Assembly: GCA_027490215.1 (NCBI GenBank)
Contig: JAIXYO010000019.1
Coordinates: forward strand, 1-64,000
Reading direction: 5' to 3'
From: Rubrivivax sp.
GTDB lineage: Bacteria > Pseudomonadota > Gammaproteobacteria > Burkholderiales > Burkholderiaceae_C
DNA: 64,000 nucleotides
Shown: positions 43,502 to 55,453 of the stretch, in pieces
Position numbering within the stretch: position 1 is the stretch's first letter
How the letters are laid out: each line of letters starts with the position of its first letter
The notes under the pieces: model-generated
What the model was told of the DNA's origin: nothing
The model's database searches: none
The model's input: the letters and a program-made list of their open reading frames with translations, nothing else
Made by a program: the position numbers and the translations under genes

Positions 43502-48295
<4,794 letters not shown>

Positions 48296-48325: not shown

Positions 48326-48354
48326 ATCCTAGCGCTTCGCAGTAAGCATGCCAA
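48326..48354 (-). promoter_or_regulatory. sigma-70 promoter of gltB
   Basis: On the minus strand TTGGCA (48349-48354) and TAGGAT (48326-48331) are separated by exactly 17 bp. The start site would fall about 48319, giving a leader of about 24 bases with AGGAG near its end. It is the best-formed promoter in the window. Confidence 0.7.
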
Positions 48355-48365
48355 GAACTTAAAAC

Positions 48366-48409
48366 GGGGTCTGACCCCATTATTTAAATCTACCCCAGGA
48401 GGCCTCCTG
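48366..48409. repeat. REP-like dyads between gltB and the RAYT gene
   Basis: GGGGTCTGACCCC (48366-48378) is a 5-bp stem with a three-base loop; CAGGAGGCCTCCTG (48396-48409) is a perfect 14-bp palindrome. They are separated by an AT-rich stretch around TATTTAAAT. GGGGTCAGACCCC-type dyads are known companions of REP-associated tyrosine transposases. The first dyad ends 12 bp from the gltB -35 box. Confidence 0.6.
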
Positions 48410-48423
48410 AAAATAGGGCCAGA

Positions 48424-49143
48424 TCAAGTGGCGCGTCGTCTGGCCTTCACATCCAGCGCAGGCCGGCCACGGGACAAGGGCTCGAGTCGCCGGCCGGTCA
48501 ATGCTTCGATCGATTGGGCAAATGCAGGGCTGCCCAGCGCCCAGCCCTTCAGCGTGGCATGGCGGATGCGCTCGACGATGTGGGCCGGCAGCGCATGAGC
48601 CAGTACGCGGCGATACGCGACCTCTCGATCAAACGGTGTGTTCCCGAGCCCCCAGAACAGGGCGTGCTCGGAGATCGCGTCATCGATGCGCAGCCCGAGG
48701 TGATGTCCCGCGCTGGACGACTGCGGATCAACCTGCGGCACGGGCTCGGTACCGTCCGCGTCCGCGACGGCGCAGTCTTCTGCGTACTGCAGGCAACGCA
48801 TGAACCAATCCGGGGCGTCGATGACCGTCGAACGGAAGCGCCCTTCCCAGGGCGTGCCTCTGCGGCCGTGCCGCAGATTGAAGCCGCGCACATAGCGCCG
48901 ACCGATGCTTTGCATCATCGCGGACAGCGACTGCGGCGAAGAAGGCGTCATCAGCAGCCGCACCTCGTCCCGGCACAAGCCGTAGCCATGGACCATGACA
49001 CCAGCCTCGCGTGCGGCTTGCACCAAGGCATGCCGGTAGGCCGAACGGTCGGCGTCATCGTGAAAGACGACCTGCCCATTCAAGCCACGATGAATCACGA
49101 CATGCGGATAACCCGCCACCACGGAACGCGGCAGACGTGCCAT
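48424..49143 (-). CDS. RAYT-type (Y1/HUH) transposase homologue, probably catalytically inactive
   Basis: A 239-residue member of the REP-associated tyrosine transposase family: PHVVIHRGLNGQ at the start, GRRGTPWEGRFRSTVI at 92-107, and the candidate catalytic Tyr119 in CLQYAED. The HUH motif, normally NHVHLL, reads DEVRLL: both histidines are replaced, by Glu60 and Arg62. Without them divalent metal binding and nicking should fail. The reading frame is otherwise intact, which argues against a simple decayed gene. It lies between the minor pilin operon and gltB on the same strand, next to REP-like dyads. Confidence 0.82.
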   Translation of the reverse strand: MARLPRSVVAGYPHVVIHRGLNGQVVFHDDADRSAYRHALVQAAREAGVMVHGYGLCRDEVRLLMTPSSPQSLSAMMQSIGRRYVRGFNLRHGRRGTPWEGRFRSTVIDAPDWFMRCLQYAEDCAVADADGTEPVPQVDPQSSSAGHHLGLRIDDAISEHALFWGLGNTPFDREVAYRRVLAHALPAHIVERIRHATLKGWALGSPAFAQSIEALTGRRLEPLSRGRPALDVKARRRAT

Positions 49144-49168: not shown

Positions 49169-49780
49169 TCAGAAGCCGGCAGCCACGCTGCAACCGGCAT
49201 CGCTCGGCTTGCACACCCGGACACGCCCCGCCACGCTGGCCAGCACCCGCCGGGTTTCGCTGGCGCCGTTGGTGAAGTCGAGCGAGTCGGCGCCGCCAGC
49301 GGGGAATCCGCCCCCGATCAAGCTCATGAAGCCACTGCCGTTGAACATCGCGTACTGGACGCCGGCGTGTTCAAAACTGGTCGCGCTGGAGGTGTCAATG
49401 GCAATCGATGCAGGCAGCGCACCGCCGCGTACCAGTTCAATGTCACCGGAGTCCATGGACAAAGCGCTGGCCGAGACATTGCTGTTCACATCGACAAACG
49501 CCAGCCATCCGCTGGACCAGTTGCTGCCGTCCGCGGGAATCACGAAGGTTCGCATTTGCCGCTTCATCGCCTCGGCCCGCGCAGCCGCCAAAGTCGCCAG
49601 AAAGCTGTTCGCGGTGGTCGTGAGTTCGGAGTTGCGCTGAAAGGTGGTGAAGCTCGGCGCAGCGAGCACCAGCATGACGCTCACCAGAACGAGCGTAACC
49701 AGCAGCTCGATCAACGTGAAGCCGCGCCGCGTCGATTTGCTTGCGAGTCCGGGTCGGGACATCAATGGGCGCAAGTTCAT
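49169..49780 (-). CDS. type IV minor pilin, FimT/GspH family
   Basis: A 203-residue prepilin: leader of 20 residues, cleavage G20/F21 (RRGFTLIELLV), Glu25 at +5, a hydrophobic helix, then the GspH-type C-terminal domain with a Cys pair near the end (RVCKPSDAGC). FimT pilins of this type prime pilus assembly and in some species bind DNA during uptake. The ATG at 49780 overlaps the pilE stop. Last gene of the operon. Confidence 0.9.
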   Translation of the reverse strand: MNLRPLMSRPGLASKSTRRGFTLIELLVTLVLVSVMLVLAAPSFTTFQRNSELTTTANSFLATLAAARAEAMKRQMRTFVIPADGSNWSSGWLAFVDVNSNVSASALSMDSGDIELVRGGALPASIAIDTSSATSFEHAGVQYAMFNGSGFMSLIGGGFPAGGADSLDFTNGASETRRVLASVAGRVRVCKPSDAGCSVAAGF

Positions 49781-50304
49781 CACCAGCAAACCTTGGGAAC
49801 GTCTTTTTTCGCGCCATTGCAGTACTTCACCCCGGCGCTGTTCAATGTCAAGGTGCCAGCAGCCGCATCCGTTCTTTGCGGGACAGCCGAGAGCAGGACG
49901 CATTCGTCGAGGCCCAGGGTGTTGCTGCATGGAGCGGCACTCAGGCTGTAAGCAAAGCTGGTCGAGTCTCCCGATGTCGTCCTGAAGGGGATGGCGACAC
50001 CGCTCGACGCCGTCGCGGTAACTCCGTTGGCGCCAGTCGCACCCGCAGCGAACTGCAGATAGCTGCCGTTCTGAGTGTAGTAGCGCTCCTGCTGCTGCAG
50101 CATGTTCAGCAAGGCAGTGCGCCCCTCGGCACGCCGGCCCTTCAAGACCGAGTCCTGATACGACGGATAGGCGACAGCCGCGAGGATGCCGATGATGGCG
50201 ACCGTGATCATCAGCTCGATCAAGCTGAAGCCACGCCCGAGGCCGGGGGCACGAGGCACCCGACGTTCGCCCGCGTTGTCAGCGAAGAATGGAGGCGGGT
50301 TCAA
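49780..50304 (-). CDS. pilE: type IV minor pilin PilE
   Basis: A 174-residue pilin with processing site G25/F26 (GRGFSLIELM), Glu30 at +5, hydrophobic helix and the PilE features SYQDSVLKGRRAEG, YYTQNGSYL and a C-terminal Cys pair. No ATG is available. I chose TTG at 50304 because GAGG lies eight bases before it and it overlaps the pilY1 stop (TTGA). GTG at 50259 (159 residues, 10-residue leader) is possible but has no ribosome binding site. The open frame upstream runs inside pilY1 and is not real. Confidence 0.9.
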   Translation of the reverse strand: MNPPPFFADNAGERRVPRAPGLGRGFSLIELMITVAIIGILAAVAYPSYQDSVLKGRRAEGRTALLNMLQQQERYYTQNGSYLQFAAGATGANGVTATASSGVAIPFRTTSGDSTSFAYSLSAAPCSNTLGLDECVLLSAVPQRTDAAAGTLTLNSAGVKYCNGAKKDVPKVCW

Positions 50305-53300
50305 TTGGCGTTCCTCAGGTCCTGATAGTTGCTGATCTCTCGCCAGCTCAGCCGACCGACGGTGTTGTGGATCGTCTGGCTGGCCTGGGTGCCGAGTCCG
50401 CTGGAACCCTGCTTGATGATCTGATACCGCGTCGTTTCCTTGCGGGAGCCAGTCGGGTCGCTGTTGAGCAGCGTCGAGTAACCGACCCGTGTCAGGAACG
50501 GTTCGCCGAGGATACCGACGTCGGACACCGTCGCGGAACCGTTGCCACTGAGCGTGTCGATCACATACAGGTTGCCCGTGCCGTTGTCGCAGCTGGTGAC
50601 GGCCGGAATCACCGATCCGAAGATCAGGCGACCGGCCAGGACACCCAGGCCACTGATCTGCCGTTCGCCTGTCCCGGTCACGGTGCTCGTCGTGCCGGAG
50701 TTGTAGAAGTCGAAGTACCAGCCCGCACGCGACGTGGTGACGTTGTCGGCCGAAGGCCGACCCCAGGCGAAGCCGGAGAAGGTGATCGACGTCGATGTCA
50801 CGGTACCCGCTTGCAAGCGGCCGCGGCCCGAAATGGCGGCCGTCGGCGAACTGGACGAGTCCGGTGTGACGCTGTTGTTGTCGAACACGGAGTACATCGA
50901 TTGCACCTTGAACGGCGCCGAGTTGTCTGCAGCCGACAGGTAGCGCCCGGTTCCGAACGACACGATGATGCCGCGGTTCGGGCCAAAGCTCAGCGCTGGC
51001 GGCATCGTGATCGGCTGCCGATTCGGCGTTGTTGCACCATCGGTCGCCACGAACATCGGAATGGCACTGCCGCTGTTCTTGAAGAACGACAGATTGTCCA
51101 GGCTCCAGGAGTCGGCAGAGGTGGTCCGGAAATCGAGCTTCCACAGGTTGCCCTGCAGGTCTCCCGCGTAAAGGTAGCTGACCTCCCTGGCGATGCCCAG
51201 CCGCACCGTGAAGTTGGCAAGACCCGACGGAAGCGAACTGTCGGTTGTGATGACGGGGAACTTCACCTTGTAGTAGTTGACGCCCAACTCCCAGGCAGTC
51301 GATTTCGCCTTGTCGAGCCGAAGGAAAAACAACGCCGGCTGACCCGTCGTGCTGGCTTGACCGTCCGCCGCGTGGTTGTTGACTCCGCTGGCCACCACGG
51401 CGAAGTAGCGATAGTCGGGCGTGGAGCTGCCAGCCGCGACATTCAGCTTCAGGATCTGCGGCGTGCCGATCACATTGCCCATGTCGACATCGTGCTTGTC
51501 GGTGAACTCCCACAGGATGCTGCTGTTGCCAGCGCTGGTGGTGGCAAAGGCCGTTGGATCGGTCACGTCGAGCGCATACACACCCTGACCACCACCGCCA
51601 GAGCCACCCACGAGCACGGTGCGCCAGTCTGCCGAGCTGGTAGAGCCCAGGTTGGCCTCGTTCACGACCGGGGTGGCGTCGACATAGCTGCGGTGACTGT
51701 AGTTCGTCGAGGTCAGCGCCATCAGGTTGGGAACCACCCAGCTCGGGATATAGGCGAACAACTCCTCGCCGGTCGTCGCGTTGAAAGCGTGGAGCATGCC
51801 GTCGTTGGCGCCGACGTAGAGGGTCGGCACGCGGCTCAGGGTGCTGCTGTAGAAGCTCGCATAGGAGGAGTCCGAGATCGTCTGCGTGGGCCCTGCGACG
51901 TAGGCAATGCCCGAGTTCACGATGTCGCCCAGCTTGCTGCCGCGCTTGCGGAAGTTGCCTCCGGCCGTGCCGCCCGCTTCCAGCGTGCGATCACCTCTCA
52001 GGTAGTTCAGGCGGTTCTGACCCTGCACGTCGGCCGTCTCGGGCGAAGTGAACAGCGCCGACTTGACTGAGGTATCGACTGCCGCCCAGGTGAAGGCGCT
52101 GCTGTCGAACACCGGCGTCGTTGCCGACGAGTTGAAGCCGACGTAGATGTTGCGACTGCCGGGCGCGGTGTCATCGAGCTTGCCGGCGGCACCGACCGAC
52201 TGACCGGCTGAATTGGTCCAGATCGAGCTGGTCGCCGAGCCAATCTGGATCTGCGTGCCATCGGTGGACAGCCCCAGCGAATAAGCCACCAGGTCGCCGC
52301 TCCAATCGGCCGGGTCGAACTGGGCCTGGTAGATCAGGCCACCGGAACTGGTGACTCGCGAAGTCGAGATGGCGCCACCTGCAATGCTGTTGGCCTCGGA
52401 CGCGACGTTGGCGAAGATCTCGTCGAGCGCCGCCAGCACGGTGTCTGCAGAACTCGACAGGAAGTAGTTCTTGGCTTCTTTCAGGTTGGTGTCGCTGGTC
52501 TGGCGCTGCCAGTTCACATTGCTGGTGTCGGTGACCACGCTGCCGCTGGCGTCCAGCTTCTTGAACGGATCGCCCGTCCCCGTCACATCCTTGAAACCCC
52601 CGTACTTCGCAGACAGGTAGAACTGGTTGCTGGCGCGGCGCACGGCAGGATTGGTCTGCTGTCCGAATTCGTTGACGTCGAGCCAATAGGTCGTGACGCG
52701 CATGCCCGGGCGCTGCTTGGAGGGTTGATCAGTCCACAGCGTTCCGCGGATGTCATGGGTATTGGCCCAGTAAGCGGCTCCGGCGACGTAGTAGGTCGCA
52801 CCGCCCGAGAAAGTCTGGCTTTCCATGCCCCATCGCGCGGTGTTGGCGGGTGTGTTGGGGTTGCTGGTGGTGCGATTCGCCACGCCCGACACACTCTTTC
52901 CATCGGCGTAAGACACTGCATTGTTCGACTCGAAACCTCCAACCACTTTGGTCCAGGCCTTGAAGTCGGGCTCGTTGAGGGCATTGTTGGCGGTGCGTGC
53001 AATGTCACCGTTGCCGGTCAGATCGTTACCTGGAAGGTATTTGTCGCTGTTGGCGTTCACGTCTCCGATGCCGACGATGTTGTTCTTGAAACAGGAGTAG
53101 TCCGTGGTGCCGTTGGACGCCGGGTGCGGATCGGTGTACGCGGGGTAGTCGGCGTAGACCACCGGAAAACCGTCACGCAAGGTGTTGTCGATGCCGTGCA
53201 TCGCGTTGGTGGCGGTGCTGGTGCCCACCAGCGTCGGCGGCAATCCCTGGAGGTAGCGCAGGCTCTCGTAGTAAAGCTCACCCACCGGGTCACGCCTTTT

Positions 53301-54830
53301 GTACTGGCCGAAGGTGCCGGTGCGACCGAACTGGTTCAGGTAGTTGATCACGCCACTGATCGGCAGGTTGGGCCGATTGCTGTCAGCACCGCTGTTGGGA
53401 GCCGTCGCACCGTCGGGATTGGTTGCGAAAACTCCCGTTTCCGGATCCCATTCCTGCGCCGCATTGGTGCCTGAGATCAGCGAGAAGTTGGCGTCGTAGG
53501 CGCGCGGGCCGACGTACTTCATCGGGGCGCGCAGCACACCGCCGTACCGCTGCGTGGAGTCGTTGTTGTCGTTCAGGTAACCAAAGGCGGCCACGCGGAC
53601 GCGGTCGCTGTACTTCTGCAGGTTGCCGACCGGCTTGTAGTTGCCGTTCGGGTAGCGCAGGCAGAGGTTGGTGCGCGGGTCAGTCAGCACGCCTGAACTG
53701 TTGGTTTCACAGACCCTGACGCGGGAGTAGAAGAACTTGTCGGCGGTCAGTCCGGTGACCGCGCCAGTCGACTCCGTGCTCCCAGATGCGCTTCGCCAAA
53801 AGCATTTCTTGGCGACACCAGGCGTTGGATCACCGCTTGAAGCGAGCCCCGGAACGCCATACGTCGACCAAGGGGTATTGCTGCAGGCCACCGTGCCTCC
53901 GGTCCGCGTGATGATGGCCCAGGTGCTGCCTGAACCGTAGGCGATCTGCTGGGTTCCCGTGACCGTATAACTGGGACCGGGCCCGGGAAAGGCCTCGCTG
54001 CCGAATTCCGTGAAGCCCGAAGGCAGTGTGCCGCTGTAAATGCCTGTTGTCGGCACCGAACCTGTTGCTGCGACGTCTAGACCCAGGTTGCCGTTCTTGC
54101 CCGGCGACCCGCAGTTGCCCGCCTTCTCGGTACCAAAATGCACGCGGTTCAGGCAGTTGGCGACATACAGCGTGCCCGTGAAACCGCTGGGCAGCAAGGC
54201 ACTCGGCACCGCACCCGCCGCTTGCGCGCTGGTGATCTGCTTCGAGGGGAAGTTCGTGCCGTTCCAGAAGTTGGTGTTGTTGTTGGCCGAATTTCCGGGC
54301 AGCACCGCCCGTTGCAAAACGGTGAGCGTGGAGGTGTCGATAACGCGGTCGCCGCCCGTCAGACCCAGGCGCAGCACATCGACGGCCGAACTGGTCGCCC
54401 AGTTCATGAAGTTACCGCTGAAACCTGTGCCGCCACAGGTGCGGTTGGTGGCCGCACCATCACGATAGAAGTACCGCAGGCTCGCGTCCCCCGAACTGCG
54501 GTTGTAGAGGTAGCAGCTTTCGGTGTCGAAGTAGCCGACGTACCTGTTATCGGACGAATAGCTGGCGTCGTCGGTGGTGTTCGGCGTGCTGACGTACTGC
54601 GCGCCCACGGTCGGAAACTCCACTGACAAGGCCAGGGTCAGCGTGGGCTTGGCGCGCGCGCCCTTCGCATACAGCGGTTCGGGAGACAGACTCACCGTCG
54701 GTGGCAGGGACGGCGTGGTCTGCGCCGACACGATCGCCAGACCGGCAGCACACAGCGCGGGCAGCACCACCCAACGTGTCAGCGGGTTCGCTGCCATCGA
54801 ATAGAACGGGCTCATGATGCGTGACGACAT
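50301..54830 (-). CDS. pilY1: PilC/PilY1-family type IV pilus tip protein
   Basis: A 1509-residue exported protein, with a signal peptide ending near IVSAQ. The last 550 residues are the PilY1 beta-propeller (LYVGANDGMLHAFN, VGGSGGGGQGVYALDV, YLYAGDLQGNLWKLDF, FGTGRYL). PilY1 caps the pilus with the minor pilins and affects adhesion and retraction. The residues before YLYAGDL lack the DxDxNxxxD-type calcium loop usual in the family. ATG at 54830 follows AAGGG by six bases; an earlier TTG at 54836 has no spacing for it. The first 900 residues are variable. Confidence 0.94.
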   Translation of the reverse strand: MSSRIMSPFYSMAANPLTRWVVLPALCAAGLAIVSAQTTPSLPPTVSLSPEPLYAKGARAKPTLTLALSVEFPTVGAQYVSTPNTTDDASYSSDNRYVGYFDTESCYLYNRSSGDASLRYFYRDGAATNRTCGGTGFSGNFMNWATSSAVDVLRLGLTGGDRVIDTSTLTVLQRAVLPGNSANNNTNFWNGTNFPSKQITSAQAAGAVPSALLPSGFTGTLYVANCLNRVHFGTEKAGNCGSPGKNGNLGLDVAATGSVPTTGIYSGTLPSGFTEFGSEAFPGPGPSYTVTGTQQIAYGSGSTWAIITRTGGTVACSNTPWSTYGVPGLASSGDPTPGVAKKCFWRSASGSTESTGAVTGLTADKFFYSRVRVCETNSSGVLTDPRTNLCLRYPNGNYKPVGNLQKYSDRVRVAAFGYLNDNNDSTQRYGGVLRAPMKYVGPRAYDANFSLISGTNAAQEWDPETGVFATNPDGATAPNSGADSNRPNLPISGVINYLNQFGRTGTFGQYKRRDPVGELYYESLRYLQGLPPTLVGTSTATNAMHGIDNTLRDGFPVVYADYPAYTDPHPASNGTTDYSCFKNNIVGIGDVNANSDKYLPGNDLTGNGDIARTANNALNEPDFKAWTKVVGGFESNNAVSYADGKSVSGVANRTTSNPNTPANTARWGMESQTFSGGATYYVAGAAYWANTHDIRGTLWTDQPSKQRPGMRVTTYWLDVNEFGQQTNPAVRRASNQFYLSAKYGGFKDVTGTGDPFKKLDASGSVVTDTSNVNWQRQTSDTNLKEAKNYFLSSSADTVLAALDEIFANVASEANSIAGGAISTSRVTSSGGLIYQAQFDPADWSGDLVAYSLGLSTDGTQIQIGSATSSIWTNSAGQSVGAAGKLDDTAPGSRNIYVGFNSSATTPVFDSSAFTWAAVDTSVKSALFTSPETADVQGQNRLNYLRGDRTLEAGGTAGGNFRKRGSKLGDIVNSGIAYVAGPTQTISDSSYASFYSSTLSRVPTLYVGANDGMLHAFNATTGEELFAYIPSWVVPNLMALTSTNYSHRSYVDATPVVNEANLGSTSSADWRTVLVGGSGGGGQGVYALDVTDPTAFATTSAGNSSILWEFTDKHDVDMGNVIGTPQILKLNVAAGSSTPDYRYFAVVASGVNNHAADGQASTTGQPALFFLRLDKAKSTAWELGVNYYKVKFPVITTDSSLPSGLANFTVRLGIAREVSYLYAGDLQGNLWKLDFRTTSADSWSLDNLSFFKNSGSAIPMFVATDGATTPNRQPITMPPALSFGPNRGIIVSFGTGRYLSAADNSAPFKVQSMYSVFDNNSVTPDSSSSPTAAISGRGRLQAGTVTSTSITFSGFAWGRPSADNVTTSRAGWYFDFYNSGTTSTVTGTGERQISGLGVLAGRLIFGSVIPAVTSCDNGTGNLYVIDTLSGNGSATVSDVGILGEPFLTRVGYSTLLNSDPTGSRKETTRYQIIKQGSSGLGTQASQTIHNTVGRLSWREISNYQDLRNAN

Positions 54831-54832
54831 GG

Positions 54833-55453
54833 TCAACCCTTCTCTTTCCGGAACACCATCTGAAGCACGACTTGCACATCAACGCGCGGGCCGAAGCCGA
54901 TGGCGGTGACGCGGTACATCTTCGGCACCTGCCCGCCCGCAGCGTTGTTGCCCTGGGCCTGGTCGTCGATCAGTTCGATGATGTAGCGGGGACGGCGTGC
55001 AGGCCGGATGCCGCTGCCCGCATCGAAGCTGCGCGCGGTGAACTCGCCGAACTCGACGGTGCGCGCGCTGTTGGTGGTGTCGAGAAAGTCGACACGTGCC
55101 CAGACCGGCTTGGCGGTGTCTGCGTACGGGGCGCACAGCCCACGCGTCGTGGTCTCGGAGCTGCAGCCCGAGACAAAAATCCCGTCATTGCCCTGCGCGA
55201 ACTGGGCGGTGCGGCTGTTGACGGCGGTGTTGGGCCCGCGAATGTCGAACTCGGCATCCATCAGCGCGGCTTCGGCCGCTTGTGAGGCGATGAGGTAATC
55301 GCGGTCGTAACGCGCGGTGCGCTCGCTGAGCAGCGCGATCTGCGCACCGCCGACGCCTAGGACGACGACGACCAGCAGGATCAGCATCACGACGACCAGC
55401 GCGATGCCACGCTGAGCGGGGCGCGCGGACGATGAAGTGCGGTGACGTTTCAT
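54833..55453 (-). CDS. pilX: type IV pilus assembly protein PilX
   Basis: A 206-residue minor pilin with leader ending G16/I17 (RGIALVVVM). As in other PilX/GspK-type pilins, +5 is Val rather than Glu. A hydrophobic helix and a helical SQAAEAALMDAEFDI segment follow; the C-terminal half has two Cys. ATG at 55453 follows GGAG by nine bases. A GTG at 55459 would overlap the pilW stop and is the alternative. Confidence 0.9.
   Translation of the reverse strand: MKRHRTSSSARPAQRGIALVVVMLILLVVVVLGVGGAQIALLSERTARYDRDYLIASQAAEAALMDAEFDIRGPNTAVNSRTAQFAQGNDGIFVSGCSSETTTRGLCAPYADTAKPVWARVDFLDTTNSARTVEFGEFTARSFDAGSGIRPARRPRYIIELIDDQAQGNNAAGGQVPKMYRVTAIGFGPRVDVQVVLQMVFRKEKG

Follow-up and report, generated by a model that had tools for sequence, protein, structure and literature searches.

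A RAYT homologue without its metal site upstream of gltB: possible exaptation as a regulator of glutamate synthase

The locus and its protein

The window, the whole stretch of DNA analysed here, comprises 64,000 nucleotides of a Rubrivivax genome (contig JAIXYO010000019.1). It carries a RAYT/TIRYT-type gene that follows a set of pilus genes and lies 128 nt upstream of gltB (Table 1). This position was already apparent in the first-pass annotation, as were the intact, full-length frame of 239 codons and the GTPWEGRF block, both of which are present. The candidate catalytic tyrosine, there numbered 119, is residue 120.

Table 1. Features of the RAYT-gltB locus, with positions in the window
Feature	Position	Strand	Basis or remark
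gltB, glutamate synthase large subunit, usual downstream neighbour	43502..48295	minus	ORF; Pfam GATase_2, Glu_synthase, Glu_syn_central, GXGXG
Predicted gltB promoter, TTGGCA-17-TAGGAT	48326..48354	minus	Promoter prediction; conserved in clade
GGGGTCAGACCCC palindrome, TIR-type site (GGGGWSAS), proposed operator	48366..48378	minus	Only exact copy in window genome
Degenerate second TIR-like site, TGATCTGGCCCTATTT, overlapping the RAYT stop codon	48411..48426	minus	Sequence; similar at same place in other clade species
RAYT/TIRYT-type Y1 transposase homologue, 239 aa, metal site destroyed (E60, R62, C124; Tyr120 kept)	48424..49143	minus	Open frame, profile match, predicted fold, dN/dS
Codons 120-124: Tyr120 (retained; 48784-48786) to Cys124 (replacing metal-ligand Asn; 48772-48774)	48772..48786	minus	Alignment; role of Asn from the available text of PMC6006769
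Codons 60-62: Glu-Val-Arg replacing His-x-His (Glu60 48964-48966; Arg62 48958-48960)	48958..48966	minus	Alignment with relatives
FimT/GspH-like minor pilin, 25 nt upstream of RAYT	49169..49930	minus	Pfam GspH, N_methyl

Both HUH histidines had been read as replaced by Glu60 and Arg62, and alignment confirms this. The window protein has LCRDEVRLL where most HUH-intact relatives have LM-x-NHxHLL, and the metal-binding motif of an active RAYT is absent (DEVRLL). The Y---NP motif is also broken: it reads YAEDCA, with Tyr120 present, Asn replaced by Cys and Pro by Ala. The Asn four residues past the catalytic Tyr is described in the available text of PMC6006769 as the third metal ligand; with Cys124 in its place, all three metal ligands are replaced in the window protein.

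The protein misses the curated family cut-offs, scoring 16 bits against a cut-off of 23 for Pfam Y1_Tnp and 17.4 bits against 80 for NCBIfam REP_Tyr_transpos (NF047646), and a phmmer search of the single sequence against the PDB matched nothing relevant. Members of alignment A2 match both families at E <= 0.01 (56/65 for Y1_Tnp, 61/65 for NF047646), and the profile built from these 65 sequences, which include the window protein, matches solved Y1 transposases (best 2xm3, E 7.2e-5; 4er8, E 0.0055). The AlphaFold2 model of the window protein (mean pLDDT 89.1, pTM 0.85) has as its closest PDB structure 4er8, the E. coli TnpAREP-hairpin complex (Foldseek E 6.4e-5, TM 0.49 by query length; VIA-align Z 14.7 over 156 residues, rmsd 2.6). 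By alignment profile and predicted fold, which is that of Y1 transposases, the window protein is a member of the RAYT family despite its sub-cut-off scores. Its C-terminal part is mainly helical in the model (residues 141-220, mean pLDDT >= 88 in each ten-residue block), and no Pfam domain, HTH included, was recognised there at E <= 0.01 when this part was taken within the whole protein.

A set of 214 distinct homologues drawn from 235 loci was examined for neighbouring genes. In 193 of them, the window's included, the next gene downstream is gltB, in the same orientation, and 197 have it anywhere in the fetched stretch; the remaining 17 include rows from other families without gltB there and rows cut by a contig end. 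Among 299 genomes of the family, a match to the RAYT protein was found in 288 and to gltB in 293: both occur in 287, neither in 5, gltB alone in 6 and RAYT alone in one (G144). Presence here means a match at E <= 0.001, not necessarily to the gltB-linked copy, and both linkage and shared ancestry contribute to the association (Fisher p 1.4e-7). In the six gltB-bearing genomes (of 293) without a RAYT match, RAYT is dispensable. Distances in RAYT run parallel to those in gltB, with r 0.55 for the full set of rows and 0.73 for the HUH-intact ones (0/199 permutations as high), a correlation that mainly vertical descent would lead one to expect. Plasmids also carry relatives of the window protein (19 records), and one phage record has a partial match.

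The upstream neighbour is variable. A dgt-like signature, scored by motif pattern, occurs in 50/197 rows; we take dgt to be the name of this frame, which has HD and HD_assoc domains in two examples. The window clade and Piscinibacter L158 have a pilin there, and other lineages have several different genes, named by eye. Four genomes of other families have no RAYT (L245-L248), and in these the dgt-like frame ends 84-211 nt before gltB (HD and HD_assoc in L246). Since the dgt-like frame adjoins gltB in these RAYT-less genomes, RAYT was probably inserted between the two genes. In the window, the pilus genes (49169-54836, pilin-like to PilY1 by Pfam domains) run into the RAYT gene across the 25-nt gap, and in the window clade the RAYT may be co-transcribed with them. 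A function through the pilus operon was rejected because the pilin neighbour is not common to most lineages inspected.

Recurrent HUH loss and selection on the remaining protein

The gene is found in 14 of the 15 genomes of the window genus, the window's own included, the remaining genome (G005) being 74% complete. Both HUH histidines are missing in all 14, which goes beyond a chance change in one genome. Eight loci have E60 with R or K62 (L001-L008); in the other six, Q60 is paired with Q or L62 (L031-L036). Outside the genus, the closest of the loci collected are two from Piscinibacter at 59% and 58%; E60/R62 is also found in L051 (59%, G303) and in L159 (Piscinibacter). The suggestion that the change from His to Glu and Arg might be fixed in orthologues at the gltB locus is borne out for the genus as regards loss of the histidines, but other genera have HUH-intact orthologues there.

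Across the 214 rows both histidines are retained in 143 and not in 71. On a gltB tree of 191 rows (125 HUH-intact, 66 HUH-less) the distribution takes at least 19 state changes, or 23 losses if loss is irreversible, and on the tree of RAYT itself 13 changes, these trees being made with fasttree or quick IQ-TREE runs without mixture models. Similarity to the window protein partly decided which rows were taken, and the 68/197 gltB-linked rows that are HUH-less are therefore not a prevalence. In a sample of one genome per genus, 10 of 42 genera are HUH-less. These 42 come from the 45 other genera of the family, two of which (G054, G057) had no match while G046, which matched in two pieces, was at first omitted; with G046 added the count is 11/43. 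The G046 relative (L253, G046:C5:108900-112800), which is outside the 214-row set, is a single HUH-less frame (Ala/Trp) upstream of gltB. About 20 extra residues are inserted between its HUH and Tyr regions. Relatives in G091 (C91, C33, C80) match in separate pieces on short stretches, and are possibly broken genes or contig ends.

The residues that replace the histidines are diverse: E, Q, R, A, S, G or Y at position 60 and R, Q, L, W, M, K, D or C at position 62. None of the 68 HUH-less gltB-linked rows retains H60 or N124; H62 is kept in 29% and Tyr in 44% (30/68). Among the 129 HUH-intact gltB-linked rows, 110 retain HUH, Tyr and Asn, with Tyr lost in 12 and Asn in 13.

Several side observations concern these substitutions. 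Tyr has been lost together with HUH in several genera, to Leu, Trp, His or Arg (L021, L022, L025, L067, L133, L148, L152 and others). Seven HUH-intact rows without the metal-site Asn (L013, L068, L107, L162, L183, L208, L210), in all of which except L013 the Tyr is also gone, are possible intermediates of catalytic loss, to judge from the alignment. The pair E60 and R62 recurs in four HUH-less clades of the gltB tree (L001, L003-L008, L051, L053, L056, L058, L059, L071, L161) and may form a salt bridge in place of the metal site.

Neutral dN/dS had been named beforehand as a sign of decay, and was not found: among eight species of the window genus all 28 pairs give values of 0.16-0.30, with bootstrap upper limits of 0.27-0.54 in the five window-clade pairs tested. 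Nei-Gojobori estimates for pairs with protein identity >= 62% and dS of 0.1-1.5 have a median of 0.20 over 82 HUH-less pairs (largest 0.41) and of 0.245 over 1306 HUH-intact pairs. Many positions outside the metal site are invariant in the 68 HUH-less gltB-linked rows (R3, R6, Q78, R82, W99, R102, S144, W164, G167, T169, P170, F171, R173, G226, R227 and P228), and D32, P67, N89, G96 and G150 are conserved in 99%. The positions conserved in HUH-intact rows that drop in HUH-less ones, H15 (to 26%), M57 (to 6%), P125 (to 47%) and R129 (to 40%), are mostly near the active site in sequence. All 68 rows are near full length (221-250 aa), although badly broken copies may be missed by the similarity search through which they were found. 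Frameshifts beside HUH-intact orthologues had also been proposed as a mark of simple decay; other genera have such orthologues at this locus, but the HUH-less frames have kept their length. The codon comparisons indicate that the window gene is under purifying selection although its active site is gone.

In the window genome (G000) nothing matches Y1_Tnp at E <= 0.001 and the window protein has no second match, and a role as dominant-negative inhibitor of another RAYT was rejected for this reason.

The candidate site before gltB

In the window, 12 nt separate the core of the palindrome, TCAGACCC, from the predicted -35 box of gltB. The core GGGTC(A/T)GACCC is present in 8/8 species of the window clade. 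Of the columns compared among these eight species, 11/13 are invariant in the palindrome, 9/45 in the spacer before it and 44/55 after it, in the promoter region. A role of the palindrome as terminator was set aside: a terminator scan gave a terminator-like match at 48366-48378 on the plus strand only, RAYT and gltB being on the minus strand. An RNA leader structure before gltB was rejected, its stability being not clearly above that of shuffles (z -0.98).

A TGTCCC-type motif, as in the degenerate second site, is enriched across the 193 RAYT-gltB intergenic regions. Exact TCTGACCC occurs in 82% of those of HUH-intact and 42% of those of HUH-less loci (shuffles 0-1%), and with at most one mismatch in 100% and 94% (shuffles 6-7%). 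When the search is confined to the 154 nt before gltB, 124/127 HUH-intact and 61/66 HUH-less loci have TCTGACCC at <= 1 mismatch, and at least one member of 22 of the 23 loss clades retains it; loci share ancestry, in their site counts as in their losses. The predicted -35 of gltB begins 12-13 nt past the site in 95/105 HUH-intact and 39/49 HUH-less loci. This spacing was scored in the 154/193 regions with a site at <= 1 mismatch and a long enough tail, and in some window-clade loci (L004, L007) the scan anchored on the other, RAYT-proximal site.

The other end of the presumed element is less well kept. The upstream end motif GGGTCAGA is found exactly in 39% of 127 HUH-intact versus 8% of 66 HUH-less loci. 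The 300 nt before the window gene lack GGGGWSAS on both strands and contain GGGTCAGA only with two mismatches, so that the gene is not flanked by TIRs on both sides: the downstream site at 48366-48378 fits and the upstream end is absent. From the scarcity of GGGTCAGA in HUH-less loci and its absence before the window gene, the element seems to be no longer mobile but to have kept its gltB-side end.

Promoters of gltB in genomes without RAYT provide a comparison. With at most one mismatch in the 154 nt before gltB, TCTGACCC is found in 1 of 12 of them, namely 1/5 in the family, where five of the six RAYT-less genomes with gltB had usable upstream DNA (the contig of G141 ends), and 0/7 outside it. 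The lone case is G299, with one mismatch, at -50. Exact six-letter motifs lie at -107 in G262 and at -310 in G184. The RAYT-less genus g128 (G141, G232, G302) nests in an HUH-less clade on the gltB tree (support 76 and 82 around it), and the motif was not found before gltB in G232 and G302, its members with upstream DNA. As a genus within an HUH-less clade has neither, the dead RAYT and its site seem to have vanished together.

Copies of TSTSWCCCCAWTTA away from the gltB locus were found in 10/32 HUH-intact and 0/10 HUH-less genomes of the 42-genus sample, small numbers read by hand with patterns that cover some end variants, and some single copies may be due to chance. At least five dispersed copies occur in each of four HUH-intact genomes (G020, G023, G043, G049). 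In the HUH-less window genus G004 has one dispersed TSTSWCCCCAWTTA, and G004, G007 and G009 each have one GGGGTCWGACCCC off the locus. The window genome has one exact GGGGTCWGACCCC site and no TSTSWCCCCAWTTA, and shows by these patterns none of the dispersed TIR copies that some TIRYT/subclass 2.1 members have. Two genomes of other families, G071 and G081 (L099-L101), without gltB in the fetched stretch, contain 75 and 19 copies of GGGGTCWGACCCC, some of those in G071 in back-to-back 13-bp arrays; on sequence grounds these look like spreading TIR families.

Proposed role and known systems

The picture of a dead RAYT beside DNA dyads understates the case: the association with gltB extends across the order and HUH has been lost on many occasions. 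Reuse of the protein, raised in the first-pass annotation, is supported by the fixed HUH change at the gltB locus of the genus, by purifying selection and by the retention of non-catalytic residues. We propose, with a confidence slightly better than even, that the window protein is a transposition-dead RAYT/TIRYT exapted as a DNA-binding regulator at gltB. A TIRYT unit would have settled long ago upstream of gltB, where the arrangement is now shared across the order, and its gltB-side end, by its position and spacing before the -35 box, may have become part of the gltB control region. RAYT would bind there and influence transcription of gltBD and possibly of its own gene. If only binding was needed, the metal site could be lost, as it repeatedly has been, while selection would maintain the fold and the other residues, as their retention suggests. 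No further Y1 transposase match or exact palindrome copy was found in the window genome, which leaves the gltB site as the only evident target of the protein. With its centre some 54 nt upstream of the inferred start of transcription, this site would suit an activator or an anti-activator.

More tentatively, and at somewhat less than an even chance, the gltB-linked RAYT could be an order-wide host regulator of glutamate synthase derived from a TIRYT transposon, in which regulation through its own end came first. Such an order of events would explain why catalysis was lost some 20 times without loss of the gene. Some observations count against a regulator. The site is also a transposon end near the gltB promoter and may persist for the promoter alone; exact TCTGACCC falls from 82% to 42% after HUH loss; part of the co-loss and synteny can come from physical linkage; and RAYT is missing from six gltB-bearing genomes, one of which (G299) has a near match to the motif, and its C-terminal part has no HTH domain recognised by Pfam.

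Among the alternatives, the one that survives best, although we think it unlikely, is that RAYT is retained for a non-catalytic role apart from gltB transcription, such as binding of ssDNA or RNA hairpins or a role at the replication fork or in the chromosome, the linkage being historical. Selection on the protein, the RAYT fold kept in the model, the E. coli RAYT solved in complex with a REP hairpin (4er8) and the dispersed end motifs of some HUH-intact genomes would all accord with this. It is less easily reconciled with a gltB neighbour that stays constant while the upstream neighbour changes, with the fixed spacing between site and promoter, or with the single exact palindrome of the window genome.

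An improbable alternative is that selection acts only on the DNA site, which another factor would recognise as part of the gltB promoter, RAYT serving some other purpose or just itself. The conserved block of the clade, which runs from the palindrome through the promoter, could be read in this way, but the motif is missing from 11/12 RAYT-less gltB promoters and is thus not intrinsic to gltB, and the protein has its own dN/dS near 0.2. We regard as very improbable, and rejected, the idea of a branch with different chemistry, also raised at first, in which Glu, Arg and Cys would form a new and perhaps metal-free active site with Tyr120: Tyr120 is indeed retained in the window clade and E60 accompanies R62 in four loss clades, but replacements at 60 and 62 are too varied for a common new site, and of the 68 HUH-less gltB-linked rows 38 no longer have the Tyr and none has the metal-site Asn. 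That a stranded transposase gene is decaying neutrally has next to no likelihood and was rejected on dN/dS, frame length and the retention of specific sites, even though the scarcity of exact GGGTCAGA in HUH-less loci suggests that the element itself has decayed.

RAYTs are not known to serve a particular host function, and our searches of an open-access library found no report of a RAYT-gltB link. The HUH-less gltB branch separates host function from transposition, at one locus, with one metabolic operon and, in the window genome, one exact site, and brings host function within reach of tests on a single gene, site and promoter. Should the proposal be correct, a former transposase, only weakly recognised by family models, affects nitrogen assimilation in a large bacterial group. 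On the order-wide reading, the host role of at least one branch of vertically inherited RAYTs would be explained. RAYTs are described in the available text of PMC8049555 as vertically inherited, single-copy, domesticated transposases, a view that fits the proposed mechanism. The HUH-less branch may have gone unseen because the phylogeny in PMC6006769 was limited to the 722 of 924 proteins that had a complete core with HuH and Tyr motifs, and HUH and Tyr were conserved in all the RAYTs and TIRYTs aligned in PMC3733652, as far as the available text of both papers goes.

Like E. coli RAYT/TnpAREP (4er8), a member of RAYT group 2, the window protein has a Y1 fold and a link to a palindromic DNA site. 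It differs in the replacement of all three metal ligands and in a C-terminal extension beyond the core, and its site is a GGGGWSAS-type end instead of a GTAG REP and is present in one exact genome copy. We place the window protein with the TIRYTs, or Y1 subclass 2.1 (RAYT group 1; PMC3733652 and PMC6006769, both in the text available), on the C-terminal extension and the terminal motif and not on a tree with subclass members; those texts make no mention of a gltB linkage. In subclass 2.1 the extension resembles helix-turn-helix domains, and GGGGWSAS is given in PMC3733652 as the consensus of TIRYT ends. HUH-intact relatives at the same locus carry GGGGWSAS-type motifs, with dispersed copies in some genomes. 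In contrast to the TIRYTs described in the available text of PMC3733652, the window protein has lost HUH and has no GGGGWSAS in the 300 nt upstream of its gene.

In outline the proposed course resembles that of TnpB, in which, according to the available text of PMC13418256, nucleases were repeatedly inactivated, kept DNA binding and became stably tied to host genes as the TldR repressors. The gltB-linked RAYT, on the order-wide reading, would be the Y1-transposase counterpart of these nuclease-dead proteins. TnpB is unrelated and RNA-guided, whereas the window protein, a relative of Y1 transposases, would work without a guide RNA, and its binding and regulation are proposals.
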